From Monosiga brevicollis MX1 (Eukaryota > Opisthokonta > Choanoflagellata > Craspedida > Salpingoecidae): DNA of 64,000 nt. The stretch is taken from NCBI RefSeq assembly GCF_000002865.3, contig NW_001865042.1, forward strand, positions 705,419-769,418, written 5' to 3'. The notes under the pieces were generated by a model. That model saw nothing but the letters and a program-made list of their open reading frames with translations, made no database searches and was not told the DNA's origin. The position numbers and the translations under genes were made by a program. Positions 12,336 to 42,500 of the stretch are shown piece by piece; positions within the stretch are counted from its first letter, which is position 1; each line of letters starts with the position of its first letter.

Positions 12336-13144
12336 GGAGCTGGAAATGGCAGAGGGGTTGTGCGCGGTATCTGGTTTGGTGTGTGGACCCGAGGGTGATG
12401 ATCCGACCGCATAGCTGGTGCCAACACAGCAGCACATTGCCATCGCATCACATTACCCTCAGCCAACCAACAGATCCCCCCCCCACACACACCAATCAAC
12501 CAACCAGTCCAACACACCAAAGCCCGAGGAGGCCGGGGGCGGGAAGAAGGAGGGAGGCGAAGGGTGGTCCTGGCGGTTTTAATGGAGTGTACTCCTTGCG
12601 CGCGCGCTCTCCGCTCCCACAAACACACCTGCCTGCCTCGCTAGCTGAAGCTCGTGCGGCGAGTCCAAACAGTGGATTACCATCAGACGTACACGCGCCT
12701 GTCTGTCTGTCTGTTTGTCTGTTTGTCTGAACCGCCTTGATTCAAGAGAGAGGGTTGGTATCCATCCAACCAACACACGCCTTGCTGTTCCCTTGGTGGG
12801 CGGTGCCTCGACGTGTGGTGCTTGCTGCAGTGCACACAGGCACACAGGCATATATACACAGTTCAAACACGCACCACTTGGCCCGTCTCTTCTCTGACTT
12901 GCATGAACGGCCCCGTTTCGCGTACACCGCGCTGCCTATCTCACCTTCCGGCCCCGATCACTTGCATCCGGTTCAGTATTCTCAGAGTGCCGCTGGTTCG
13001 GCCCTCGCTCTTCGGGTGCCGGATAGCTTCTTGAACCGGCGCCTCGCCCTTCACACCTGGCCGGCGACGCCCCTCAATCGCTTGACCCTGCGAGTCGAGG
13101 AGGGCGAAGACAGAATTTGTTGTTCTTCCACCAGAATCAACAGC

Positions 13145-16100
13145 ATGACTCGAGCCCTGCTGCTGGCTCCGGCTGGCTTACTTGTGCTCTGCCTCTTCTC
13201 TGCTGTCGTGCCTTCAAGTGCGTTTGATTTACCTGGATCAATCGCGCTCGCTCTTTCGATGCCTTTGGCTGTCTTCCTATCCTTTGGTTGATTGCAAAGC
13301 GTGATGCGTCTCGCCTTTGTACGACTTTTGTATACTCACCTTTTTCTCCCGGCTCTGTCGAACCGTACCTCCAGCTGAAGCTCGTGTTTACTGTACATAC
13401 GGTCAATACGTCAACAACACCGACGAAACATGTCGCCCTTGCCCACAAGGCTTTTACAAGAGCTGGTCTAGGCACGATGACATCACTTGCATTGTCTGCC
13501 CGCCAAGTACGGCCGCCACACTCCCACCCGCACCCCTCTTTGACCCCCCGGCGGTTTTCTGCTCACAGTTTCTCCTACCGTATAGACCAGTATGCTCCCA
13601 ACGAAGGGCAGCGCATCTGCTTCAATTGCCCTGCCGGCAAAATCTCCTTGGAAAATCGCACCGGTTGTGTGGACTGTCCCGCCGGCTATTATGCAAACCA
13701 AGGTATGGGATTGCCATTCCCCCAGGCGGCCTTTCCTTGTTTCCTTTGCCAAGCTCACTGACCCTATCATTGGATGCATTGTTGGATGTATCCAGGCTAC
13801 ACCTCCTGCTATCCATGCCCCGTCGCGCGGTATCAACCCATGTCTGGCCAAAGAACCTGTGTACGTTCACTTTGATCCTTTTGACTCATATCCTGGCCAC
13901 GGCACAGCATAGCCATCTCTTGACGTAGCCGCGTCAACTGCCCCGCGCCGTAAAAAGACACGGTGACAAGAGAGAACCCGAGTCAGAGGGACGAGAAGGG
14001 TGGATACAAACATGGAGATATGGGCGCCGATACAGCCTCGGGGACGTTGAACCCAGACACAGCCACACAAAAGAAAAATGCTTACGACCGGTCTTGACAT
14101 GATTCTATCGCCTGGTCCCTGGCCTTGGTTGTAGCTCTACTGCGAGCCCGGCAAGTACCAGGATGAACGTGGTCAAAGCTCGTGCAAGCTTTGCCCCAAA
14201 GGGTTCTTCAACCCGTACACAGGGCGCATCAATTGCGACTATTGCAGCGCTGGCCGCTTTAGTGATCGCGAAGGTGCCACGACCTGCCCAACCTGCAGAC
14301 CAGGCGAGTACCAGGACAAGAGCCAAAGCTCCAGCTGTAAAGTGTGCCCACCCGGCACCTACTCCAACTGGATTGGCCGCACGAGTTGTACCAACTGCAG
14401 CGCCGGGTGGTATGCTCCCAACAACCGAACGAATCAGTGCAATGCCACCATCGATGGCTGGATGACAAGCTACGAAGGTGCCACCGAGCCCGAGACCTGC
14501 CCACCCGGGCAGATCACTCAAGGGGTGGCCAGCAGGTCCTGTCGTAACTTCACCAACGGCGAAGGCGGCATCGATGAGGGCTACCCCGTCGTCTTCCTTG
14601 ACTATCCCTGCCCCGCTGGTCAAATCGTCAACGCGTCCCACCCCCAGCGCAAGTGTATGAAGTGCCCGCCCGGTACATATCAGCCGTATACGGGTCGCAC
14701 CGAGTGCTACGAGTGTCCAGACGGCCGATTTTCCGATCACTATGGCATGCGTACCTGTGCCAGCTACAACCGCATCCCCAGCGGCTATTATCTGGACCCT
14801 AATATCACGCTCAACAAGACAAGCGATTACCCCCATACACCCTGCCCTGCCAACACGTATCGTCGTTGGGACTTTAGCCTCAGCAACTGTGTAGATTGTC
14901 CGGCCGGCTCGTCATCACCGCCCGGGTCCGGGTTGTGCATCTCAGATGTGCCTCGTGGATGCGTGCCGGGCGAGTACTGGACAGGCTCGAGCTGCAGTGC
15001 CTGCCCCCATGGATACTTCACCGATCAGGCTGACGCCGTGGTCTACAACCGTGTATGGCAGTGTGTTCCGGGCCAGCACCAAAATGTTAGCTATACCACT
15101 TCCTCAGATCGCATCTGCACCGCATGTGAGCCGGGAAAGTATCAAGACCAATCGGGCTCCACAGCCTGCAAGTCCGTCAGTGTGTCCAGCTACGACTACA
15201 CGGATTATTACGGTGCTTACTATCCAAGCAAGGCACAGTATTGCTTGCCTGGTACCTACGCCCATGAATGGGTGGCGGAAAAGCCGGCCGATTGTCGCGC
15301 CTGTCCCGAGGGCAAGTACCAGGACCAATGGCATCAGCCCTCCTGCAAAAATACCACCATCTGTCTTCCCGGCCAGTATCAGGTCACAACTCCATCCGTT
15401 CGACGGGATCGCCGCTGCTACGACTGCCCAGAAGACCGCCTTACCCCGTTTGAAAATGAACTTCGCTGTGACTACCCTGAGCTATGTCCATCCGGGTGGG
15501 GTGTGGTGAGTCTTGTGTTGTGACTGAGGCTTCTGCTTCCTCCGTTCTCGTGCTCATGCCATTGGGCCTTGCCTTTGCTCGTTTCGCTATCCATGCAAAA
15601 CGGTTGACGGTTGACGAGCAGACACAAGAGTTTACGACATCTTCCGAGCGTGTTTGTGCACCTTGCGTTTTGGGTGTGACCTACAACGACGATCCTGACG
15701 GTGGCGTTTGCAAGGTATGGTATGGGCTGCAAGACGAGACATGACAAATGTGCATGTTGCTGAACCGCGGCGCCATCTCGTCAAGCTGATGTATCTCAGT
15801 ATCTCAACATGTCTCATGATTCGTGTGCTCCTCGTCTCGTTTATGGTCTGGAGTAGCCCGTCAACGCGAGTTGCCCTCCTGGCACAGGGTATCTGGCCGA
15901 GCCCACACTGTACAACGACCGGTCCGTTTCGACTCTTTCATGCGCAGGCATCCTCGCACATCTCGTATGGTGCCACCCTAATCCTTTCCTTGCATCTCAA
16001 TTGTCGCTGTTATCCCGCTTGCGCTATCGTAGAGCGTGTTACGAGTGCCCCTCCAATGCTTTCAAACCCCACTGGGGCGATGAGAACTGCACGCACGCAA

Positions 16101-19100
16101 CCATTTGCGATGTGCGCGAGCGCGAGACAACGCCCATCACCCCCACCAGCGATCGGGTTTGGTACGTTGTGCCTACCAATGAATGTCAACCTCCCCCAAC
16201 TCGGTGTCAGCACGGTGATAACCTGATCTTGGGTGGCTTCAGCACGTCTCGCTACTACTGTCAGAATACGGTGGATGACTTTGGCCTGGACTGTGAATGT
16301 CGCTCTGGCTGCCGAGACTGCTACAAATCTCCTTCCGGTGATGATTATCTTCTCGTACGTCCCCGCGCAGACAACTTCTGCTGGGACAGGAGCACAAGCC
16401 TCAGGATGCCTGCTTGCCTAAGTGTGTCCAACCTTGATCTCATTGCGATCATCACCATCATCATCTCTAGCTGCGCACCAATGGTGCCCCTTCTTCAGAG
16501 GCCACCACCAAGCATCCCATATGCTTCAAGGCCGACAATTACACGTCCGATTTCACCGAGCAAGACATTGTGAACAGCTGCAGCATCGCGTGCCGACAAG
16601 ATGCTGAATGCAACGGCTTTCAAGTTTATCCACGCACAGCAGACGCCACCCTGCGTGGCAGTTGCTGCCTCAAAGCCTCGTACGCCAAGCCTCTATCTAC
16701 TGTTGCGTGCCGTTCTACCCCTCTGTTGCCTCAATCAGTGCTCATGACTAATGACTATTGGTGTTTGCTTGGTGATTATTGATTGGCTTTGAAACCATGC
16801 CAGCTTTGATCCAAACGCCATCTCGGACGAAGATGGGGCTGACTTTTACGAAATGGAAGGCTGCATCAGATGTCATGACGAGCATTATCTTGACGGCCAA
16901 GTTTGCCAGCCCATGTCCCAGTTGCCGGGGCTCGGGTACAACGTACGTTGGGTGAAAACCCGGGCTTTATCGTGGTTGTGAAGCAAATATGTTGCAGCCG
17001 ATCTTTTGGCCCTTTTGACAATGGTGTCGTCCAATGTGGAGTGGTTTGAACGCAAACCATGTCTTCATCGCTTCTTACGCTTGCAATCACCCCCTTGGGT
17101 TGTGCTTACTATTATATCGTGGTTTCAGGAGCTGACCTTTGCTGTCCCCATCAACTTCCCGGGCAATCAAACTTTGACACACGTGAACATCACGCGTCGG
17201 GAGGGGTATTCATACACATTTGCCATAACCGAGGTGCAATCAGCCATTTTGGCGCCCGAAGACCTCATTATTGATCCCAACACGGGAGCGATTACGTGTA
17301 CATCAGATTTGGCCACCATTGGGCAGGTCGTTTTTACCGTGCAGATTCAGGACAATCAGTCTGTCTGCTTCCTTCTTGATGAAGACGGCTCGCCCACCAA
17401 GCTGCTGAGCGGCTGCACCCTCGACATTGAGTTTGATATGACGGTGGTGGGTTTCCTCTCGTGCCCCGATGACATCATCTTTTACATTCCTCTAGCCGAT
17501 ACCGAGGCCTTGATTCAGTGGCAAGAGCCACTCATTCCAGCGACCGCCACCAGCGTCAACGTCACCCTGAACAACAACCAGACGGTCTTTGAAGCTGGTA
17601 CTTATGAGGTGCGACCTGCTACGACCCATACTTATTTTTTTTTTTATCTTTTATCTTTTTTCTCTTTTCTCTTTTCTCTTTTCTTTGTAAGCCTGGTATT
17701 GCGTCAAGCTTGCGCTCACGTGTGCCACTCCTGTGCTTGCCTTTCGAGCAGATTATCTATCAAACGACACCTCTCTACAACAACGATGTTCTCAACTGCA
17801 CATTTTCCGTGCTGGCCATCAACGGGTTCCGTCGCAACGTGTCATATGTGCGGCACGAGTCCACGGCAAACATTGCTGTGGATCACGTCCTGGAGGGCAC
17901 CGCCTATGACCGCCGCGTAAGTACATATATTATGCCATGAGGCAGCAAGCCTCAAGCAGCTCAGTCTGCGCTGGCGTCCATTGGCTTGTATTGTGTTTTC
18001 TGGATTGAGTTGTAATCTGATACTTTTTTTTTTTTGTAGGTCCTGCTGCCCGAAGCCTTTTACGGTGATTTGAACCGAGCCAGCTTTGCCTACGGCGTGT
18101 ATAGTCCCAATGAGAAGCCTTTCACGGTCTTTCAAGCTGATGGGGTAGAGGCACGCGTTCACATTCGGCTGGCTTGGTGTGCCAGTGGCACCATGTTTGA
18201 TGCGAGTCAACTGGTGGCTACAGAGCCGCAGATTCAGTTTGCAGGCTCGGATATCGAATTTGAAGATCTTGGCTCAGGCGTGGCAAGTGACTCAAGCTGT
18301 TTGCTAATTTGGGCCCGCTCGGCTCCAATTGTTGACGCCGTCTCTTTCCCACGCATTGATATTATTCTTCCGCTGTCTGAGGTGTTCAACTCCAACGAAA
18401 CGCGCGCCCGCCGCTCCACCGGTGAAGTGGCCCTTTATGCACCAGTGGCTCCTAGCGCCATTTTCCTGCAGCAGACGCCCATCAATAATCAGGATATGAG
18501 CAGAGCTAGTTCATTGCTCGTGTTGGATGATATTGTGGCGCCTTCATGGGTGGGGTGCCCCGTCGCCCCCATCGAGGTCAACATGCCGGCAGGTAGGTTT
18601 GCCCGTCCTCGCCAACACCTCTGCTGGCCTACCCAACTAACACACTCTTTGCCATATTGGGTAGGCTTGGATCAGGTGCAAGCCATCTGGATTGAACCAC
18701 AGGCCAAAGACAACGTTGGTATCTCGAGGATCGATGCGACCTTTCGACCCGGAGACAACTTCTCGTGGATAGGCAATCCCTACCAAATTGTGTACACTGC
18801 CTACGATTTGTCAGAGCAGAGCGCCGAATGCCGGTTTGATCTTCAAATTAACTACAATGTCAACGCGTACGAGGTTGTGAGCCCCATGCCCGCCATGTTC
18901 AGTCGCTCGGTGACTGGCCTGATTGGGCTGCCCTTTGCTGACGATGAGCAGCAGCTTCTTGATGTGGCTGCTGATAGCCTTGCCTTTGTGAGTAACCTCA
19001 ATGGCAGCAACGCGCTAGAGCTACACCTGAACGCCGGTTCAGATGATCTCATTGAGGTTCGCAAGCGTGCAGACACCCAGTTTGCCCAGGTGCGTCGCGC

Positions 19101-22100
19101 GGTTTATGTGATGGTCCCAACAAATGTCGCTTTCATCCTGATTCATTTGAAGGAAGGGGAAGTATTTTTTTCCCCCTTTTTCGTGTCTGTTGGCTGTGCC
19201 CTTGTCGCCGATCCAACGATTGATGTTTGCTCACGACTTTTGTGTGCACAATGACACATTATTGCAGTTTGTCGTCAACCTTGATTGGACGATCGAGTCG
19301 ACTGAGGTGGTCACGTTGCCGCATCAGCTGACGCTAGCTGCCGAGCTTGAGTTTGAACAGTATCGACTGCCCTCAGGCGTCGTCGCGGGAAGTGACACGC
19401 TGCGCAGCGTGGAGCTCCTCTACGATGCCACGTGCCACATTGACATTTTGGCAGGACGCATTCAACTCACCGCCCTGTCAAGTGCTTTCACCCATGGGTT
19501 TTTCTTCCGGAATTTGATTGTGCGCATCAAGTACCCGCTGGGCCTGGAAAACTACGACAACATCACTGATATTCTCAACGGAACCGTGCGCTCGTGGTCT
19601 CTATCTCCGGATAGCATTGTGGCGCTCCGTCATCGAGTGGATGCCGAGTTTGTCGAGTCATATGATGCAGAGGTGAACGAGCCCTTTGTTTTGGTTTATG
19701 ACAACCAAAAGCCCACTTTCTTGAGTTGCCCCTCGAGTGCCGCCACCCGTGCACCGATTAATGTGTCGTTTGCAACCTTCAATTGGACCGAACCCGCCAT
19801 CACGGATAATCGCCCCCTCGGGTTGCGCCTGAGTTACACTGCATTCTATGATGACGGACCCTTTGAGGGCAATATCAGCAACCCCATGCAGGTACCCATT
19901 CGCGATCCCGATTCCCCACCACTCACGGTACAGTATCGAGCCCGTGATGAGTATGGCAATTTTGCCCTGTGCAATTTCACGTTGCGCGCACAAGACGGCC
20001 AACCGCCCAACGCCGTTTGTCCGCAAGATCTGGAGTATACCCTCCTGCCTGGCCGTGCCGAGTACGATGTTCCCTACAGTGCTTGGCGGCCCACCACCAC
20101 CGATAATGCCGACTTGGCTGTCGTGGTCCTTCAACCCGAGGCTGGTGCCTCCATGCCCCTCCCCACAGGCGCTCACGAGTTTGTTGTGGTAGTTCAAGAT
20201 GCTTGGGGCAACAATGGCTCGTGCACTGGTACCGTCACCATCATTGACGAGGAAGCGCCCAACGTCATCTGCCCCTCTAACGTCGTGGCCTTTGTAACAG
20301 CCAACGACGAGGGTAATGCAACCTGGGATGCCCCCGTTGTGGTGGATAATGCTGGTGCCGAGGGCCTCACTTGGACCTCGGAAGTAGCCAACGGAAGCTC
20401 CTTTGGCCTCGGCAGCCATCTCGTGCGCATCGATGCATATGATGCGAGTGGAAACAAGGCATCTTGCCAGTTTGCCGTCACCATGCAGCGCCCTGCTGCA
20501 TCGACTGGTGCAGATCCCGCTGCCGTGCGCGGTGCGGCAGCAGGTGGCGGCGTTCTCATTGTCGTGGTAATTATTTTAATGGTGGTGGTACGGCGCCAGT
20601 ACCTGAAGAGCCGCCGTCCAGCCGATTGGAAGGACATCTTCTCAATGATCGACCAGCTGAACAGTGGTGCCGTGGGTGAGGATGGTCCTCGCGTACCCCG
20701 CGAATTGGGACGCAGTCATGTCAAGTTACTGGATGAGCTTGGGCGCGGTGCATTTGGTATCGTTTACAAAGCACTGCTGGAAGAGCCTGGCATGCCGGGC
20801 TATATCGTGGCTTGCAAGTCGCTCCATGAGGCCAACCAAGGCGGTGCCATGCGCGAGCTTTTGGAGGAAGCGGCCGTGACCGCGCAGTTTGTACATCCCA
20901 ACGTCGTGCACCTTATTGGCGTCGTGTCTGTGGGCAAGCCACTGCTTGTGGTACTGGGCTTTTGCGAGCGTGGCAGTTTAAAATCATATCTGGAGGAGAA
21001 CGGGCCCATGGTATCCGATGAACAGCGCGCATACTTTGCCTTTCAGTGTGCCTCGGGTATGGAGCATGTGGCATCCTTTGGCTTTATCCATCGCGACATC
21101 GCGGCGCGTAACATCTTGTTGGCCAGTGATCTGAGCTGTAAAGTCTCTGATTTTGGTCTAGCCCGCGAGTCGCCCAACACAGATGACTCGCACGCCGCCT
21201 ACTACCGCTCGCGCTCCGGTAACTTGCCCGTGCGTTGGTCGGCTCCTGAGGCGCTCGAGGATCAAAAGTTCTCACATGCCTCGGACTCATGGGGCTTCGG
21301 TATCCTCATGTATGAGATTTACACCGATGCAGAGATGCCGTACAAGGGGTGGAGCAACCAACGCGTCTGGGTCGAGGTGTCCGCCGGCTTTCGGCTGCCG
21401 CGACCTGAGACTTGCCATGAGAGCGTTTATGAGATCATGATGGATTGTTGGATGCATACGCCAGCAGATCGCCCCACCTTCTCGGACATCGTTTTTGAGT
21501 TGCGCGGTGTGTTGGAGGGTGTGTTCAACTTTGATGTTGATGACAGTGCCAAGAGCAGTGGATACTTGGACGTCAATGATGCCGAGAGTGGCTACGAAAA
21601 TCGCACCCTTCTCAAGTCCTTGGTCAGCCACTTCACCCTGGGCAAGCGGGGCAAGGGCGACAAAAAGGGGGCTACGGGCAACAAACGGTTTAGCCTGCAC
21701 CGCAAGTCTACTCTGAACGACGAGAGTGACATGCAGTTGCACAATTTGTCAGAGGAGGCTGGCGACGAGCCAGAGGAGGTTCGGCGTGTCACCGCTGTCA
21801 ACGACCCCGATGCGCTGTATGACATGGGTGCTGGCTCAGACTTTGGTGAGGACGACGAGGAGTCGGTATCTTATGCTTATGCTACAGCAGGAGCTGGCAA
21901 AGAGAAGGTGTCCTACGAGCTCGCAAGCGGCGTGCATAATGACCCAGAGGCCATCTACGATGCTGGTCAGGCATTGGAAGAGCCCGATACGATGGGCTTC
22001 CATGCCAATGCTTTGCTCAATGACGACATTTATTCCAACGAAGGGCGACCCAGCGGGCCGGCGATGGTAGCCCCAGTGGGTCGTGCCGCAACCGAGTACC

Positions 22101-22480
22101 AAGTTGGCCGTCGCGTTCGCGTGCAGGGCTATGCCTGCCAGGGTACCTTGCGATACTATGGACCCCACCAAAGCAAGCCTGGCAAGCGCTGTGGCGTTGA
22201 GCTCGACGAACCTTTGGGTCTGAACAATGGCACTGTCGCGGTACGTCACAAGTCAAACACGCAGTGCAGGCGGGTGGTATGCTCGGAAAGAGAGAGGAGG
22301 GAGAGGGAGAGGGATGGCGGCTTTCGGCTTTTGGCTGGCAAATTTTTTTATTTTTTTTTGAACTCACATTCACATGTAAATTTTTTATGTTGGATAACGC
22401 TGCAGGGCCACAAATATTTTGAATGCGCTCCTTCGCACGGTGTGCTGGTCGTGCCGTTGCGAGTAGAATTTTTGGACTAG
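13145..22480 (+). CDS. Receptor tyrosine kinase with C-terminal CAP-Gly domain
   Basis: Sixteen exons join with matching phases to 2,419 residues: 13145-13217, 13375-13506, 13586-13702, 13796-13860, 14135-15505, 15622-15714, 15857-15921, 16033-16354, 16471-16679, 16804-16942, 17129-17608, 17752-17916, 18040-18595, 18665-19089, 19268-22240, 22406-22480. Order: signal peptide; many cysteine-rich repeats of the ephrin-receptor/GCC2-GCC3 type (CPPGTYS, CPAGYYAN); a cysteine-rich segment resembling PAN/Apple (near 16510-16680); several HYR domains; one membrane helix near residue 1832 followed by basic residues; a tyrosine kinase at about 1890-2160 with LGRGAFG, VACKSL, HRDIAARN, DFG, twin activation-loop Tyr and PVRWSAPE; a tyrosine-rich acidic tail; and a CAP-Gly domain at about 2347-2419. 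The kinase motifs are complete, so activity is expected. The ligand is unknown. The CAP-Gly implies a tail that contacts microtubules or their end-binding partners. Confidence 0.93.
22098..22480 (+). other. CAP-Gly domain coding segment of the RTK
   Basis: Residues about 2347-2419 of the RTK, split by the last intron (22241-22405). The sequence follows the CAP-Gly pattern: GRRVRVQGYACQGTLRYYG, then GVELDEPLGLNNGTVA, and after the splice GHKYFECAPSHGVLVVP. The usual GKNDG core reads GLNNG, while the conserved GVELDEP and YF-C-HG positions are present. Phase 0 at both splice sites joins the two halves exactly. Confidence 0.9.
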
Positions 22481-33530: not shown

Positions 33531-36500
33531 GGAGGGACCTGCCCATCTCGAACCCATCGATGTGGAAGCCAGCACTGAGCAATCCACTTCCGATCAGATC
33601 CTTCGCTTTGGCGATTGCTTCTCCCTCTTCACGGCCGATGAGCCCGGCTATCTTCATGCCCCTGTGTTTGGGTATGCTTGCTTGTTTTGTTTTTTATTCT
33701 GCCCCACACTGGTACCACCTCCAAACCGCAGCTCTTCAGCCCACCCGCCGCTTCCCCTCACCTCACCCCCCCCATAGCGGAGAATTCACCCCCGTTCTCG
33801 TCAACACGGCGGCCGGCCAAAGCGATCACAAACTGGATTCCTTTTCTGTGCGTCAACCCATATCATCGTCCCATGCCCATGGTCATGTGCCAAGCTACCT
33901 GGTTCTTCATTCGCCGATCGCTCCCTTTGTTGTGCTCTCTGCCTCGACAGCTGGCCGTGTTTCAACTTCACGCACAATGCAAGTACAAGGCTGCCAAGCG
34001 TTTGCGCGCCGAGTTTGATGCCTATCAGAAACGCTACTTTGAGAAGAATCCTGACGAGGAAGATGAACTCACCCTCGAGACCGCTTTGCTGGAGCCTGAT
34101 AGCGGCAAATTGGCCCAGCTCAAGCAGCTAGCTGATGATGAGCAAGAAGGTGATTTTTCGCTCCCCCGGCTGCACCGGCAATTCCCCCTGCCTCCCCCCT
34201 CCCCTTCTTCTTCATCTTGATCACATGCACTCGTGTGCTCATTCACATCTGATGCATAAAATGAATTGCAGACAATGCTTTGGAACAAGAGCGTCGCGCT
34301 CGCGACCCGGTCATGTACGGTCAGGTGGTCCAAGTATTCCACCGTGACTTGGAACGCTACCTCACCGTCTCGTCCACCGTCACCACGGAGGTTGAGAAAA
34401 AGTTTGTGACCTTGTTCACCCCACCCCCTCCCCCGCTACACCTCGTGAGCCTTGGCTACGGCATGCCTAACGTTGAGTTGACACGCATCACACTTATCCG
34501 GCTTGCCCCTCCTTCACCGTGCTTAGCAACATGCGGATTGAGGTCGACCCCTACACCTCACGTCACGCCTGGTTTAAGATTATGCCTCGCTTCAAGGTCC
34601 GCTCTGAAGGCGAGCCCGTCCGCATGGGCGATCAAATCATGCTCGAGTCCATCAAGACCACGGGCCAATTTGTGCACGTGACTTCCCAGAGCCTGCCCGA
34701 CACGTCCATGACCCCTGGCTCTCGCGAAGTCAACGTGTCCGTCACCCCAACCTCCTTTACCCTGCTTCCCCACCATCGCCCCCTCCGCGCCTCGGATGTG
34801 TCTGCCGAGTCGGATGGCACCGTGCACCTTCCTCTTCGCTCTGGTGACCTGATCCAACTCTTCCACAAGGAAGTGTCCGCCTACCTGGCTGCGGAAGGCT
34901 ACTTTTATACAGACCAGCTAGTCCTCGACGCCCATCTCCGCGTCCGCGAGCCCGACGCTCGCCGCCCCCATCGCCTCGAGCCACCAACCAGTGCCGTCTC
35001 GGTACGCTGTCACACTTGCTCATGACTGTGTGGTTATTCAACCCCTTTCTAACTCCCAACTTTCGCCCCCGTTGTCGCTGCCCCCGTTGTCGCTGTCTTC
35101 TCATCTTCTGCCCCCCTCCCCGCTGTTCAGTTTTGGATGGTCGAGCATGCCACCACCCCAACCATGGGCAATATCATCGAGTGGGACGATGTCGTCCGTT
35201 TCAAGCATAGTGTCTCCGGTCGCTATTTGACAATGAACGCCGATGGCTCCGTGTCCCTCTCCAATGTTTCCGGTGAATTTGGATTTGACGGCGATGAGCG
35301 CAACTTTGTCATGACCACGGTCATTCCCGAGCGTCGCGAGATTACCCTCAACTCTTATACCCGTATCAAGAACGTTGTGCACAGTAAGTCTGCTTCTTCG
35401 GCCCACTTTTTCTTGTCACAGTACCGTGGGGCACCCGTACCCAACTCCGACCCGCCGCTGCGCCCTCATTTTTGGCTTTACTCATATCGTGATGTGATCA
35501 TTAGATCATTGGCTGCATGCCAACAAGGACGTCTACTTGGATCGTCCCACTCAGGCCATCTACGCCGACGACTCGCTTCGCACGCCCTTGTCCGAGCGCA
35601 TGAACAGCATCAAGTGGGACAATGCTCCACTCATGCAACTGGCGGGCTTGCCCCAGCGCCGCTTTGATGACGCTTTTATCATTCAGGGCGTATCCCGCGA
35701 CGTGTGCTCCTTTGTCGCCCACGTCAAAGCCATGATTCCCATCTTTCGCTTTGCCACGGCCCAGATCCAGGGCGGCCGCCCCACCCTGCTCTTCTACCAG
35801 CGCCTGACGCTGGCCCTTGAGGAGTTTGTGGCTTTCCTCAGGCCCAATGGCATCCACGATCGTCGCCGCCAAAAGCTCCTCCGCAACTTTGGCATCGTCG
35901 AACTTTGCGTCGAGTTGCTTCAGGCCCCGATCGCACCCTTCCATCGTGGCCCCAACGGCCGCAGCATGAAGCAGGTCAAGCAGGATGCTGCCCTCATCCG
36001 TGTTATGGAGGAGTGCTACGAGCTGCTGGAGAGCTACGCCACTGGCAACTCTCGCAAAAACGAGCTGTACCTCGTGCGCCACCTCAGCTTCTTCCACCAG
36101 CAAATGGGTTACAACTGCGGTTCGGAGAAGATGATTACCGAACTCATTCGCGACAACGCCAAGATTGTCGAGAACATCTCCGAAACTGAGGTCGATTTTT
36201 ACATCTCCCTCCTAGCCTCCAACGGTGATAAGGACTACTTTGATGTCTTTGGCGTGCTTTGCAATGTTGAGGGCGCGGCCGACGGCGGCAACCAGAGCCT
36301 CATCGTTCAGAAGCTGCTTATCGATCGGGCCGACCTGCTTTATACCACTCGACTCGATAAGCAGGCCAATGATATGGTCATCATGGTTCCGAACCGGGGT
36401 TCCTACACATTCACCCAAGCCTGGAAGCAGCGACACTCCAACGAAGCCATGGGCGAGATCATGGAGTTTTTGGAGAAGCAACTGGACATGTTCTCTGAGC

Positions 36501-39500
36501 TCTGCTATCAGCGCTGTGCCAAGGCCATCGACTGCATCTCCCAAAATTACCTGGACTGGGAGCAGATCTTCTGGTGCGTGCAGAACATCAAGGACCCGGA
36601 TTTGCGCCGCATGTACGTCGACCTCATGCGTGTCCTCTACGTTGACATCAACCCCAACGTCGACGTGCTTGATGGCGTCGCCCTCCTTTTCCCCTACAAG
36701 CGGCTGACAGCCGACCCTTTCGTGGATGCAACCTCCGACAACACGCGCTCCATCACGGGCACCACCATGTCTTACTTTCCCGAGCTCAGCCGCTGGATCA
36801 TCAACATCCTCTCAAAGGACAAAGGCGCCATCTCAGCTGCGGATGACGAAGAGAACGAGTTTACCGAAGCCGTCCTGGAGCTTACCCGCTACCTCGTCGA
36901 ATTTGGGTATTTCATCTCCGATGACGACATTGAGAGCCTCATGACGCCCTTGCGCCGCATCCTTCAGGGCTCGAATGACGTCCCCTCGCGCCCCGAGGGC
37001 CAGCGCTCACAGACAATGGCTCCCGGCAAGAAGCGATTCCGCACGCAGTCTCGCGTCCCCGTACTACCGGACAGCTACGAACTCAAGTGCCAGCAATTTC
37101 GCGCTGAAGGCCGCTTCGAGCTCAACCCGAAGAACAAAGTGGTGATTCGCGTCAAGCTCAAAGCCCTCGAGATCGTGGACACGCTTGTCAATCTCTGCCT
37201 CAACATGCGTCTTCACCAGTTTCTTTTCGACTTCCGCCAGTTGAACGAGGTGAACGAGCCCAACCGCCGCAATACGCGCCAAACCCGATCGGGCAAACCC
37301 CTTCTGGCTCGTGAGATGCGCAGCGGTCCCACCATGACCTTGGAGCAAATGCAGGCCCTCAAGGCCCTCATGGACGGTGATATCGATCCCACGCAGCTCA
37401 CTTCCGTCGTGCGTGCCTATATTGATGAGGTTATTGACCGCAGTAATTACATCGCGCCCGGCTGGCGTCCCCAGCAGTCACGCGATCGCCAGGGCTCGAA
37501 TGACTCGGACTTTGCCGAGATTCTCCTGGACCTTGCCAAGTATCCCTCCAGCAAGCTCGCTTGCAAGGCTCTGCAGCTGATGAACCGCGTCTTCTCGGCT
37601 GCCGATGACCTCTTCAACAAGGCTGTCGATGCCCAATTGCTTTTGGATGAAGGCTCCATTGCTTTTGAGAAGGAGCTTCGCGAGCGCATCATGCCTGACC
37701 TGCGTCGAGTTGGTGGTGCTCAAATCGAAGAGGGCGAGGAGGCCGCCGATTTTTGCGAGCTTTTGGACAAGCTTGTGCGTGCTTGCGACCTGGACGCACG
37801 CTTCCCCCACAGCATCAACCAGCAAATCATCGTCAACAACGATGTGCTCCCCGTCATCTTTGACACGCTCAACGCCGAGGATCAACCTTCGGAAGTGGTG
37901 GCCGGCTGCTTCCGGCTGCTCCGGGCCCTGAGTCGCAACAACCCCTTCGTGCAAAGCGAGTTTTTTGACCGTCTGGATCAGCTCCTCACCATTGAGAATG
38001 AGGGTGACACGTGGCAAGACGACATGGCCGTGGCCGTGTACGAGATCTTTGCAGACAACGAGAAGCTGAGCTTGGCTCTGCGTCCGCGTCAGATTGAAAA
38101 GTTGATGAGCTACATTCACACTCTCAACTTTAAGGCCCCACAGTTGCTCGTGACCACGCGCTCCATCGTCAAGTGCGAGGAGCTGGACGTGCCCCTTGAT
38201 CGCAATCAGAACCTTGTGATGAAGTTTCTCATGAAGAACTACGACTCGGTCATTGCCCCTGCCAACATCTCCGTTCAGGCCGACCCCAGCGTAGTGGAAG
38301 CGCGCATGCAATTGCTGCGTTCCAAGGACCCGGCCAAACTTGGCGAAAAGCAGTTCCACGCCTACTTGGTGGGCTTGATTGCCCACTGCGCTGAGGGATA
38401 CAACCGCTTCATCGAGTCCACCTGCATGACACTGCTGTCTTTTGAGGACATTCTCGCTGTGGTGGCCGATCCCCACATTCCCTTTTGGATCAAGTCTGAG
38501 TATGTACTCTTCTTCTACTTTGTATACTTGGAGACGGCTGCGCAGGAAATCGAGACTGGCATGGGCAACATTGCATCTAATATTCGTCTTTGGACAGCCC
38601 TCCTTGACCTGGCCAAGTCGGTGCTCAACTCAGCCTTCAACAGCCCCGAACCTTACCTGGCGCCCGAGGTGGAGCGCTGCGTTTTCGACGCCTTCCTGCC
38701 GACTTTGACGCACATGGTCAAGCACCATACAAGCAAGATGGATGAACGCATCCAGGCGCCCCTGCGCCAGATGCATGGCATCATTCAGCAGCTAGCCACC
38801 CGCGCTGCCGACCGCTTGTATACCAAGGAAATGGCCTTTGAGCTGTCCTCATGCTTGGTGGCCTTTGACATGTCCAGCCTTGGGCTGGCTACCAGCAGTG
38901 ACCTGCTGAATCGCCTTGATCGCCGCATGCAGGTGCTGCAAGGCGACGTGGCCATGAGCACAGCGTATCAGCAGTACGAGGATCGCTTCCGTGCCCAACT
39001 GCACTTGAATGAAGCACTCAATAAATTCGTCAAGCGCGTGCGTGAGGCGTTTGGCGGCGCCAACTTGGTGGCCGTGCAAATTCCCCATCACACCACGGAC
39101 AGCGAGATTCTGGCCCGTGACTACTGTGAGGGCGAGGAAGACGACGAGTACTTGCCCCTCGGCCCCGAATTCCAAATCTTTGTGGACATGTTTGCTCGGT
39201 ATCAAGTGGTATCGGGCGTGAAGCAGCTCGTGGGCATTCGCGAGGATGACGTCCGCTCCTTGGTGCGCTCGCTGATGGCCTCGCAGCGCTACTCGGCGGG
39301 CATGGATGCGAAGGATGCTGATAGCCAAGAGGTCCTAGACATCCGCTCCCTGCAGCTCCTGCGCGCCCTGATCCATAACCAGATCAAGGTGGACGCCGAA
39401 GTTGTGGATATTCAAAATGACATCGCTGGCGCCGGTGCCGTGCTGCCCGTAGCCTCACTGCTCTCCCACAGCAACGACGAGGTGGTGCGTGAGTCCCTCG

Positions 39501-42500
39501 CCCTGCTTGTGGCACTCCTTGATGGCGGCAACAAGGCTGCCCAACAAAGCTTCTTGCAGCACTTCCTCGCCACGCGTGAAGAGACTTTCTTCTACGATGT
39601 CCGGACATTGTTGAGCTCTCCGTGTTGTCTCATCAAGATTCAGCGCTTCAGATGTTGACCGTCATTGAGAACCGAGATGAACCTATTTTGCAGGACCAAG
39701 GCAACATCGAGCTCGTGCTGCGGGTGCTGCAGTTTATGTGTGAGGGCCACTTCCGCCCCATCCAGGACTACCTGCGTTTGCAGCCGGACAACGCACGAAA
39801 GATCAACCTTGTTGCCGCGACGGTCGAGTTTTTGCACGTACTCTCAGAGGACTTGGAGGCCGACGACCGCCTGGACCTGGTCGTCCAGACTGTCGAGACT
39901 TGCGTCGAGTTTTGTCAGGGTTGCATTGGCAACCAAAAGGCTGTCTTTGATGCTCGCGTGGTTGATGACATCAACTTTATCCTGCGCTCGCCTGAACTGC
40001 ACAACGTGGCCTCGGACCCTGATGTACCGGATGCCGAGCGACCCATCATGGAGGAGAAGGTGGCTCATTTGTATTTGGCCACGGCCAACCTTGTGTTGTC
40101 CATGCTGGAAAACTCGGATGACGAGACGGCCGAACTGGCCCTGGAAATTCACGACACGCTCGATCACAAGCGTATCCTTGAAACCATGTTCCGCTACTAT
40201 GCCCTCATGGACGCGCGTGGGGACAAGAACTGGCAGACGGAAGACGATGACGACCCCGTGACGGCTTCACAGGTGGCCTACGCCATGTTTGCCGTCATCA
40301 TTCGCCTGCAGGACTTTACTAAGAAGGACTACATGGAGCTGACGAGTGGCACTAGCTCGTTTAAGCGCTTGGTCGCTGACCCAGCTGCCTGCTTTGAGAC
40401 AATGCGCTCTCAGGTGGTGTCCATTGAAATCCTTCGCGATAATCAACTCCATCGCGTTCACTTTTTCAACCGATGGAAGAGCGATATCCGCCCAGAAATC
40501 AAGGAGCATTTGCAGCAAAATGTCGACCGTAGCTCGCCTTCGGACAAGCTCCAGGACTTTGTCGCGCGCTGCAAGGACATCATCGCAGATATTTGTGAGT
40601 TTGTACTAGGCAGCACGCCTGCGTTTCGCATGGACGATGTTTTTGTTTGTTTTGTTTTGTTTTTTCGTTTGCCAGTGTTTTGATTGTCCATAACCTACTT
40701 TTGTCTTTTTGCTTTTCTGTTTTCCTGTTTTTCTGGTCTTCTGTCTTCCCCTTCTTCCCCTCGGTCCTTTCTTGTTGCTTGATTTCCTTATTTCTTTCCT
40801 TCATCTGACACAGTCTCACTTCACTTTCCATTTGGCTTGTTTTTCTTATTTCGCCTTCAGCCTATCAAAAGCGAATGCAGGAGTTTAGCTTTATCACCTG
40901 GTTTATCAGCCATTACAGTCGCTGGTGGGCTCATCTGATGCTGCTGTTGACCCTGGTTCTCAACGTGATCATTCTTGCTGTATGGCGGGCCCCCGTCAGC
41001 TGGGATGACCCTGTTCCAGAGTACAGTGTCGGGTGCGTTGACTTGAATCTCTCAACCGCCGCTATTCGTCCACTGGTTCATTTTATTGCTCTGTGGCTTT
41101 CGTCATCTCGAAGCACCGGCTTGCCTAACGACCGTTCCTTTCGTTGCCCTTCTTCTCAGTTGGTATACGGACGTTTTGGGTGTCCTGGGCGCCTTCCACA
41201 TCATCTTTTCCAGCTTGGTTGCCATTGCCTTCTTCCTGCTGCACCCACCGTCCCTGTCCGCCTTGGTGACTGAGTGAGTCAACAGCGGGAACCGTGGTTT
41301 GGATCGCGTTGTTTGAGCGTGCATGGCACTTTGGTTTGCTCATGGATTTGTGTTCCTTGTAGCACTTTTGGTGATGTGGAGACGATTGAGGATTATCCTT
41401 CCTGGATTGCCGAGCCTCTGAAAAAGCTGGTGTCCGACGAACCGGGCTCGCGAAACTCGCCCATTAGCCTCTCTTCGCTGTACCATATTGGCTTGGTCTT
41501 GTTCTCCATCCTGGGCTTGGCCTACCACGGCTATTTCTACTGTTATGCCTTCTTCCACATTGTGGTGGGCAATGACATTCTGCTCCGCGTGATTCAGGCT
41601 GTGACCAAGAACAGCAAGTCCTTGCTTTGGGTAGGTGATGACGCATGGCCAGCCACCTTGAATCCCTCTCGTTCATGCCCATGCCCGAGACCGCTCTGAT
41701 TATTCATTTGATTTTGCTATTTTCGGCTGTGCCCACAACTCATGCGATGAACCGTCAACTTGCGGTTTTGCCTGTCATGATGGATAGCTGGCGGCCTTGA
41801 TGGTCATCGTGATCTACATCTACAGCCTGGTGTCGTTTGCCTTCTTGCGTAAGGCCTTTGATGAATCAGAGGGTGCCTTTTGCCAGACGGCTTTCCAGGT
41901 GCGTTCTTTGGCGGTGTGATAAGTAGATCTGTCGCACGTGAAGGCAACTTTTGGCTCGAGATTATGAGCTTGACCTTGCTAGCTGGGCTTGGCCTGTTCG
42001 TCATCTCACGCCACGCTGTTCTCCCTTGCAATGACGTTTGCAGTGCTTTATCACCAGCCTGCGCCTTGGCCTGATGTCGGGTGGCGGTTTGGGTGAAGCC
42101 CTACCTGGCGAGACGTTCAGCTTTATCGAACCTGGCGTGCGTACGCTGTTTGACCTTAGCTTTTTCATCATCGTGACGATTATCGGCTTGAACGTACGTC
42201 CTCGTATCCCCATGCTCGTTCTTTGTGCCCTTGGTTACGTGTCGGCATGATCGTGTCGCATCCTCACGACACACTATTCGGTGCCCCCACACCATCCTTG
42301 CTTTGGTGATACGCAGCTTGTCTTCGGTGTTATCGTTGATACGTTCAGCGAGGTATGTGACTGGCTCCTGTGGTTTTGGGTCTTGACCGAATATCCTTGC
42401 TCATTCAACTGCCTTTTATCTGCTGGTGTCCCTTAGCTCCGCGACGAGGCTCATGAGATTGCCGAGGCTCGCAAAACTGAGTGCTTCATTTCTGGCCTCA

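Follow-up and report, generated by a model that had tools for sequence, protein, structure and literature searches.

The window, as we call the 64,000-nt stretch of DNA analyzed here, contains a multi-exon gene predicted to encode a receptor tyrosine kinase (RTK) with a C-terminal CAP-Gly domain (Table 1). Coordinates without a label are window positions, and all features are on the + strand. Labels such as C21, C33 and C52 denote contigs of the same Monosiga brevicollis genome and also serve as names for the genes found on them.

Table 1. Features of the CAP-Gly receptor tyrosine kinase gene in the window.
Feature	Position	Strand	Basis or remark
Probable start codon and signal peptide (MTRALLLAPAGLLVLCLFSAVVPSSAF)	13145..13225	+	Met at 13145, ORF 12731-13291; signal peptide by eye
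Extracellular Cys-rich repeats (Pfam Ephrin_rec_like, TNFR_c6), at least two exons	13401..15520 (from C53:718819)	+	Pfam
Extracellular HYR domain	18664..18849	+	Pfam, E 2.4e-8 in ORF 18040-19251
Membrane-nearest HYR domain, best of two stretches in the exon	20246..20482	+	Pfam, E 1.7e-31
Transmembrane helix (GAAAGGGVLIVVVIILMVVVR)	20531..20593	+	Kyte-Doolittle mean 2.46; most hydrophobic 21-residue stretch of the exon
Tyrosine kinase domain, catalytic motifs intact	20723..21499	+	PF07714, E 5.1e-80
Cytoplasmic tail, acidic, Tyr-rich	21500..22102	+	Sequence reading
LYDMG tail motif (in VNDPDALYDMGAGSD)	21815..21829	+	Resembles the RTKC8 tail substrate that performed best in vitro
Second tail motif, IYDAG (in HNDPEAIYDAGQALE)	21953..21967	+	Sequence reading
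CAP-Gly domain, first part	22103..22240	+	Arg codon 22187-22189 (dynactin W57 place); GLNNG Leu codon 22220-22222
Phase-0 GT..AG intron	22241..22405	+	Position common to five RTK paralogues
CAP-Gly domain, second part (GHKYFECAPSHGVLVVPLRVEFLD), and stop codon	22406..22480	+	Ends EFLD-stop

The Ephrin_rec_like repeats were detected by Pfam in seven stretches at 14135-15520 (E 6.3e-32) and again at 13305-13925 (E 5.7e-8). Farther downstream, a single exon (19151-22240, 1030 aa) encodes HYR sequence (two stretches, E 1.7e-31), the transmembrane helix, the tyrosine kinase and most of the CAP-Gly domain. The PK_Tyr_Ser-Thr profile (PF07714) matched residues 525–783 of this exon with an E value of 5.1e-80. 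By eye, the GRGAFG, VACK, HRDIAARN, DFG and APE motifs are all kept, corresponding to the G-loop, Lys, HRD, DFG and APE elements of a catalytically active tyrosine kinase, which the window kinase is predicted to be. This agrees with the initial annotation, which had described the kinase as intact.

The unspliced exon matched CAP_GLY over profile positions 1–44 of 65 (E 1.9e-10). With 22240 joined to 22406 (phase 0, GT..AG), the reading frame continues and the domain becomes complete, scoring 78.9 bits against Pfam CAP_GLY (PF01302; E 2.8e-22, profile positions 1–64 of 65), well above the curated cut-off of 26.5 bits. The open frame also continues past the splice site to 22480, and kinase and CAP-Gly lie in one 1109-residue open frame. 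The proposal of the initial annotation that an RTK and a CAP-Gly domain share one continuous coding frame was thus borne out, and the HMM search that it had named as a possible refutation recognized the domain instead. Elsewhere in the window, at 35498-39658, a long open frame carries an RIH domain (RYDR_ITPR, E 2.1e-30) and is predicted to be part of an IP3- or ryanodine-receptor-like gene.

A profile search of the M. brevicollis genome for CAP_GLY gave 31 matches, all of them exon pieces. In five long kinase-bearing frames (window, C33, C51, C49 and C34), the match stopped at profile position 45. A sixth match, in C52, extended to position 61 and thereby into intron sequence, as reading the DNA showed. 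In all six split RTK genes compared, that of the window among them, a GT..AG intron falls at the identical CAP-Gly codon. Because six genes share this position, the exon joint in the window is not a chance reading. A match at C35:642223 likewise stops at position 45, and the genome kinase search gave no kinase match near it. When the ORFs of five paralogues were scanned with Pfam, HYR and kinase were found together in all five and CAP_GLY in the same ORF in four; in C52, CAP_GLY is located in a later exon than the kinase. Since the gene model was inferred from DNA alone, kinase and CAP-Gly could in principle be separate genes or the intron misread, but we consider this extremely improbable and reject it on the basis of the shared open frame, the intron position common to six genes, the same layout in four of the five paralogue ORFs, and the identical layout given for RTKC8 in passages of PMC10263333.

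When compared with the PDB, the window kinase matched best to 8e4t, the kinase domain of RTKC8 (E 1.1e-88), followed by the EGFR entry 9p9u (7.3e-86, a whole-chain score in which no single stretch passed the limit). Eph receptors made up the main group of matches after RTKC8, from E 2.1e-64. The genome kinase search yielded 32 matches at E 1e-15 or better, ten of which belong to eight genes with a downstream CAP-Gly match, assigned by same-strand nearness for two C21 genes and C52. The remaining 22 had no CAP-Gly match within 10 kb when the two lists were compared by eye. A kinase tree was calculated from 14 rows, consisting of 13 loci from the 32 matches and RTKC8 from the PDB, leaving out C21b and weaker or fragmentary matches. 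In this tree, the window kinase grouped with C34 and C33 (100/99), and seven of the eight CAP-Gly RTKs formed one 100/100 branch together with a long-branch kinase, C30, whose placement is unsure. Because of C30, only 44% of 200 bootstrap trees kept the CAP-Gly RTKs together as a group of their own. The three published tail peptides of RTKC8 all occur on contig C21 (L008, L019). About 10 kb away on the same strand is another CAP-Gly RTK, which makes a tandem pair with RTKC8 (C21:292900-304900).

With a kinase nearest to that of RTKC8, a Cys-rich and HYR ectodomain, one transmembrane helix and a CAP-Gly tail, the window gene is predicted to be a member of the RTKC family of receptor tyrosine kinases in M. 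brevicollis. According to passages of PMC10263333, this family has ten members, most of which combine Cys-rich and HYR domains, a transmembrane segment, a kinase and a CAP-Gly tail, an arrangement from which the authors, with reference to the 2008 kinome paper, suggest that the receptors interact with the cytoskeleton. Passages of PMC8662651 describe RTKC as choanoflagellate-specific and place RTKC and Eph in one clade. Since the RTKC architecture is given in PMC10263333, the claim of the initial annotation that the fusion is novel fails, and we rejected it. For animals, no report of an RTK with a CAP-Gly domain was found in a literature search that had most subscription papers outside its reach.

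We then compared the binding groove between CAP-Gly domains. Passages of PMC3583065 identify F52, W57, K68, N69 and R90 of dynactin as key residues for EEY/F binding. The alignment comprised 11 CAP-Gly domains of the kind found in the window, here called RTKC-type (nine from eight RTK genes, with two in C49, one from C31 and one from C32), ten other CAP-Gly domains of the genome, dynactin and CLIP-170; 23 of the 31 CAP-Gly pieces make up these 11 and ten domains. In the window domain, the five contacts read Ser, Arg, Leu, Asn and Val, leaving N69 as the sole contact kept from the canonical EEY/F-binding set (1/5).

The same pattern was observed throughout the class. The W57 place is occupied by Arg in all 11 RTKC-type domains, compared to Trp in eight and Arg in none of the ten others. 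His at the T50 place and Leu at the F88 place are likewise found in 11/11 RTKC-type domains and in 0/10 others, eight of which have Phe at the latter position. F52 is kept in none of the 11 versus seven of the ten others, R90 in none versus three, and K68 in two versus six, whereas N69 is kept in all 11 versus five of ten. The Gly frame is also kept in the RTKC-type domains. Counting contacts, nine RTKC-type domains keep one and two keep two, while the ten others keep 5, 4, 4, 4, 1, 0, 0, 5, 4 and 2. Divergent grooves thus exist outside the RTKC-type class as well, in the four others that keep two contacts or fewer (L005, L006, L053 and L056, two of which keep none), yet not with the His50/Arg57/Leu88 pattern.

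The initial annotation had pointed to a change of the GKNDG core to GLNNG and suspected an altered choice of ligand. The change itself is real, encoded by the Leu codon listed in Table 1. As a peculiarity of the window gene, however, GLNNG was rejected, since place 68 is variable (L, R, R, K, N, N, R, N, N, L and K across the 11 RTKC-type domains) and GLNNG recurs in the C31 domain. Loss of K68 was similarly rejected as the key sign, since four of the ten other CAP-Gly domains are also without Lys. Neither the K68 nor the R90 loss is special, with only 6/10 and 3/10 of the other domains keeping Lys and Arg, respectively. Rather, GLNNG is seen from the alignment to be part of a wider groove rewrite common to RTKC-type CAP-Gly domains. 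The suspicion of altered ligand choice is strengthened in this way and would extend to all 11 aligned domains.

The RTKC-type domains formed a single clade (100/97 branch, 100% of 200 bootstrap trees), with a mean identity of 55.8% among themselves, as against 35.8% with the genome's other CAP-Gly domains and 38.3% with dynactin and CLIP-170. Twenty of 73 columns are invariant over the 11 domains, the new His and Arg among them. The Arg at the W57 place is written by three codons (CGC, CGG and CGT), so the amino acid stays fixed while the DNA drifts.

The eight pieces left out of the alignment correspond to seven partial or intron-split domains, which were read by eye. The W57 place is Trp in three of these (L051, L055 and the second C11 domain), Leu in the first of L050, Phe in L017, Tyr in C35:642223 and probably Arg in C35:643167. 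The last of these (C35:643167-643256, L013) is a partial CAP-Gly domain with GRNNG, an unclear exon border and no kinase match nearby, and may be a twelfth, diverged member of the class. Arg at the W57 place may thus not be fully confined to the RTKC-type domains aligned. A report of the rewritten RTKC-type groove was not found in the literature search, which covered PMC10263333 by its mentions of CAP-Gly and had subscription papers mostly outside it. What was known is the RTK and CAP-Gly architecture with its suggested cytoskeletal link; what is added here is the class-wide groove rewrite.

Two of the 11 domains are found outside the CAP-Gly RTKs. On C31, a 2963-residue open frame contains TNFR_c6 repeats, a transmembrane-like stretch (by eye) and a tail with a CAP-Gly domain of the same class, including GLNNG. 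The genome kinase search gave no kinase match on this contig, and Pfam covered 816 residues upstream of the CAP-Gly domain. This receptor-like protein is located at C31:400850-403800 (L052, L065). In C32 (L016:4020-5699), a same-class CAP-Gly domain lies near the end of a protein that had no Pfam match in the pieces scanned, is presumably PHACTR-like and is not known as a receptor. Among the RTKs, the tail of the C49 paralogue (L011, C49:788000-796500) contains two CAP-Gly domains separated by an LYDMG site. The ectodomain scan covered the window gene, five paralogues and C31, while the ectodomain of RTKC8 was taken from passages of PMC10263333 and C21b was judged from its kinase alone; on this basis, nine of the ten class-bearing genes look like receptors. 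Most likely, the RTKC-type CAP-Gly domain is mainly a receptor-tail module, present in eight RTKs and one kinase-less receptor-like protein.

The tails of these receptors also share tyrosine motifs. Six of the eight RTK genes (window, C33, C51, C49, C52 and RTKC8) contain LYDMG-like motifs, and none was found in C34 or in the stretch of C21b examined. As a DNA pattern, LYDMG had 16 matches in the genome, nine of them in five RTKC genes, and the reversed pattern had one. In passages of PMC10263333, the LYDMG peptide Y1990 showed the highest rate among three RTKC8 tail peptides, and a Y1897 peptide was also assayed as a substrate. Based on our alignment and the same passages of PMC10263333, Y1897 is the Tyr of a YFxC motif inside the CAP-Gly domain, so the kinase could mark its own CAP-Gly domain.

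Outside the class, two of the ten domains compared retain every one of the five contacts, for example at C52:980069. There is one EB1 C-terminal match in the genome, at C44:68114-68233 (L063), which ends in DPEEAY (EEAY, not EEY). One tubulin of the genome ends in EEGAEEY, and we take it to be alpha-tubulin. With an EEY-ending alpha-tubulin, EB1 and canonical domains in the genome, the standard system is present, and the receptor class departs from it.

We consider it fairly probable that the window gene encodes an RTKC receptor whose CAP-Gly tail belongs to a rewritten-groove subclass, with a ligand other than the classic alpha-tubulin or EB C-terminus. Engagement of the ectodomain would lead to clustering of the receptor, the clustered kinase would phosphorylate tail tyrosines, and SH2/PTB proteins would dock on the phosphorylated tail. 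The CAP-Gly domain would serve as a conserved peptide-binding module of the tail, its canonical EEY/F groove rewritten by His, Arg and Leu in place of T50, W57 and F88, with F52 and R90 gone and N69 kept.

The initial annotation had suggested that the fusion ties the receptor directly to microtubule ends. In this model, the CAP-Gly tail would recognize the EEY/F terminus of alpha-tubulin or EB1 in the way that dynactin and CLIP-170 do. The clear CAP_GLY match, with CLIP and dynactin as the best PDB relatives, is consistent with such a tether, as are the presence of the EEGAEEY alpha-tubulin and the DPEEAY-ending EB1 match in the genome and the retention of N69 and the Gly frame. Since N69 and this frame are kept and place 68 is Lys in 2/11 and Arg in 3/11 domains, EEY/F ends may still be bound weakly. 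For CYLD, passages of PMC5135002 say that its CAP-Gly domains mediate association with microtubules as well as with NEMO, so microtubule binding is compatible with a divergent groove. However, four of the five key residues named in the passages of PMC3583065 (F52, W57, K68 and R90) are replaced in the window domain, and F52, W57 and R90 are replaced in all 11 aligned RTKC-type domains. The direct tie to microtubule ends is weakened by the survival of N69 alone among the five EEY/F contacts, and we regard it as doubtful. We infer from the groove residues that tethering to microtubules is possible, but less likely than a different ligand.

A bolder proposal, and in our opinion an unlikely one, is that this distinct M. 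brevicollis CAP-Gly subclass left tubulin and became a reader of receptor tails, in which a basic pocket formed by His50, Arg57 and Asn69 would accommodate tyrosine tails that are acidic or phosphorylated, the receptors' own conserved LYDMG sites possibly among them. If so, the RTKC kinase would write the ligand for the CAP-Gly domain of its own tail. We consider it quite improbable that the CAP-Gly domain is a relic, that is, a cap at the end of the tail that folds but has no ligand and is weakly constrained. Most of the canonical groove residues are indeed lost, as a relic would predict, but the invariant columns with their new His and Arg, the synonymous codon change at that Arg, and the receptor with two CAP-Gly copies (C49) all argue against it.

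The pairing of RTK and CAP-Gly is a choanoflagellate one and is cited, in passages of PMC10263333, as a possible link between receptor and cytoskeleton. Because the RTKC CAP-Gly domains share a rewritten binding groove, the microtubule link is doubtful. A receptor–cytoskeleton link should not be assumed when 11/11 aligned domains are without most of the residues that hold EEY/F, and the occurrence of the same class on one kinase-less receptor-like protein also speaks against assuming it. At issue is whether CAP-Gly took on a new role in signalling near the origin of animals.

Among known systems, RTKC8 (PDB 8E4T; passages of PMC10263333) resembles the window gene in its Cys-rich/HYR ectodomain, transmembrane segment, kinase, LYDMG-bearing Tyr-rich tail and CAP-Gly domain. 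It differs in having five LYDMG sites after the CAP-Gly domain, where the window protein ends directly, and in having GNNNG in place of GLNNG. The Eph receptors, the group that follows RTKC8 among the kinase matches in the PDB, share with the window ectodomain the Pfam Ephrin_rec_like repeats, counted here as a likeness. Unlike Eph, the window gene had no ephrin-binding domain by Pfam in the exon pieces scanned, and it has a C-terminal CAP-Gly domain. Because Ephrin_rec_like has at least 89 matches in the genome, many of them on contigs without a kinase match, such as C54 and C28, these repeats were not used as evidence of shared ancestry with Eph. The likeness to dynactin p150Glued and CLIP-170 is one of fold and sequence family (E 3.6e-14 between the window domain and restin) and includes N69, G59 and G71 of dynactin, while F52, W57, K68 and R90 are Ser, Arg, Leu and Val in the window domain, T50 is His and F88 is Leu.
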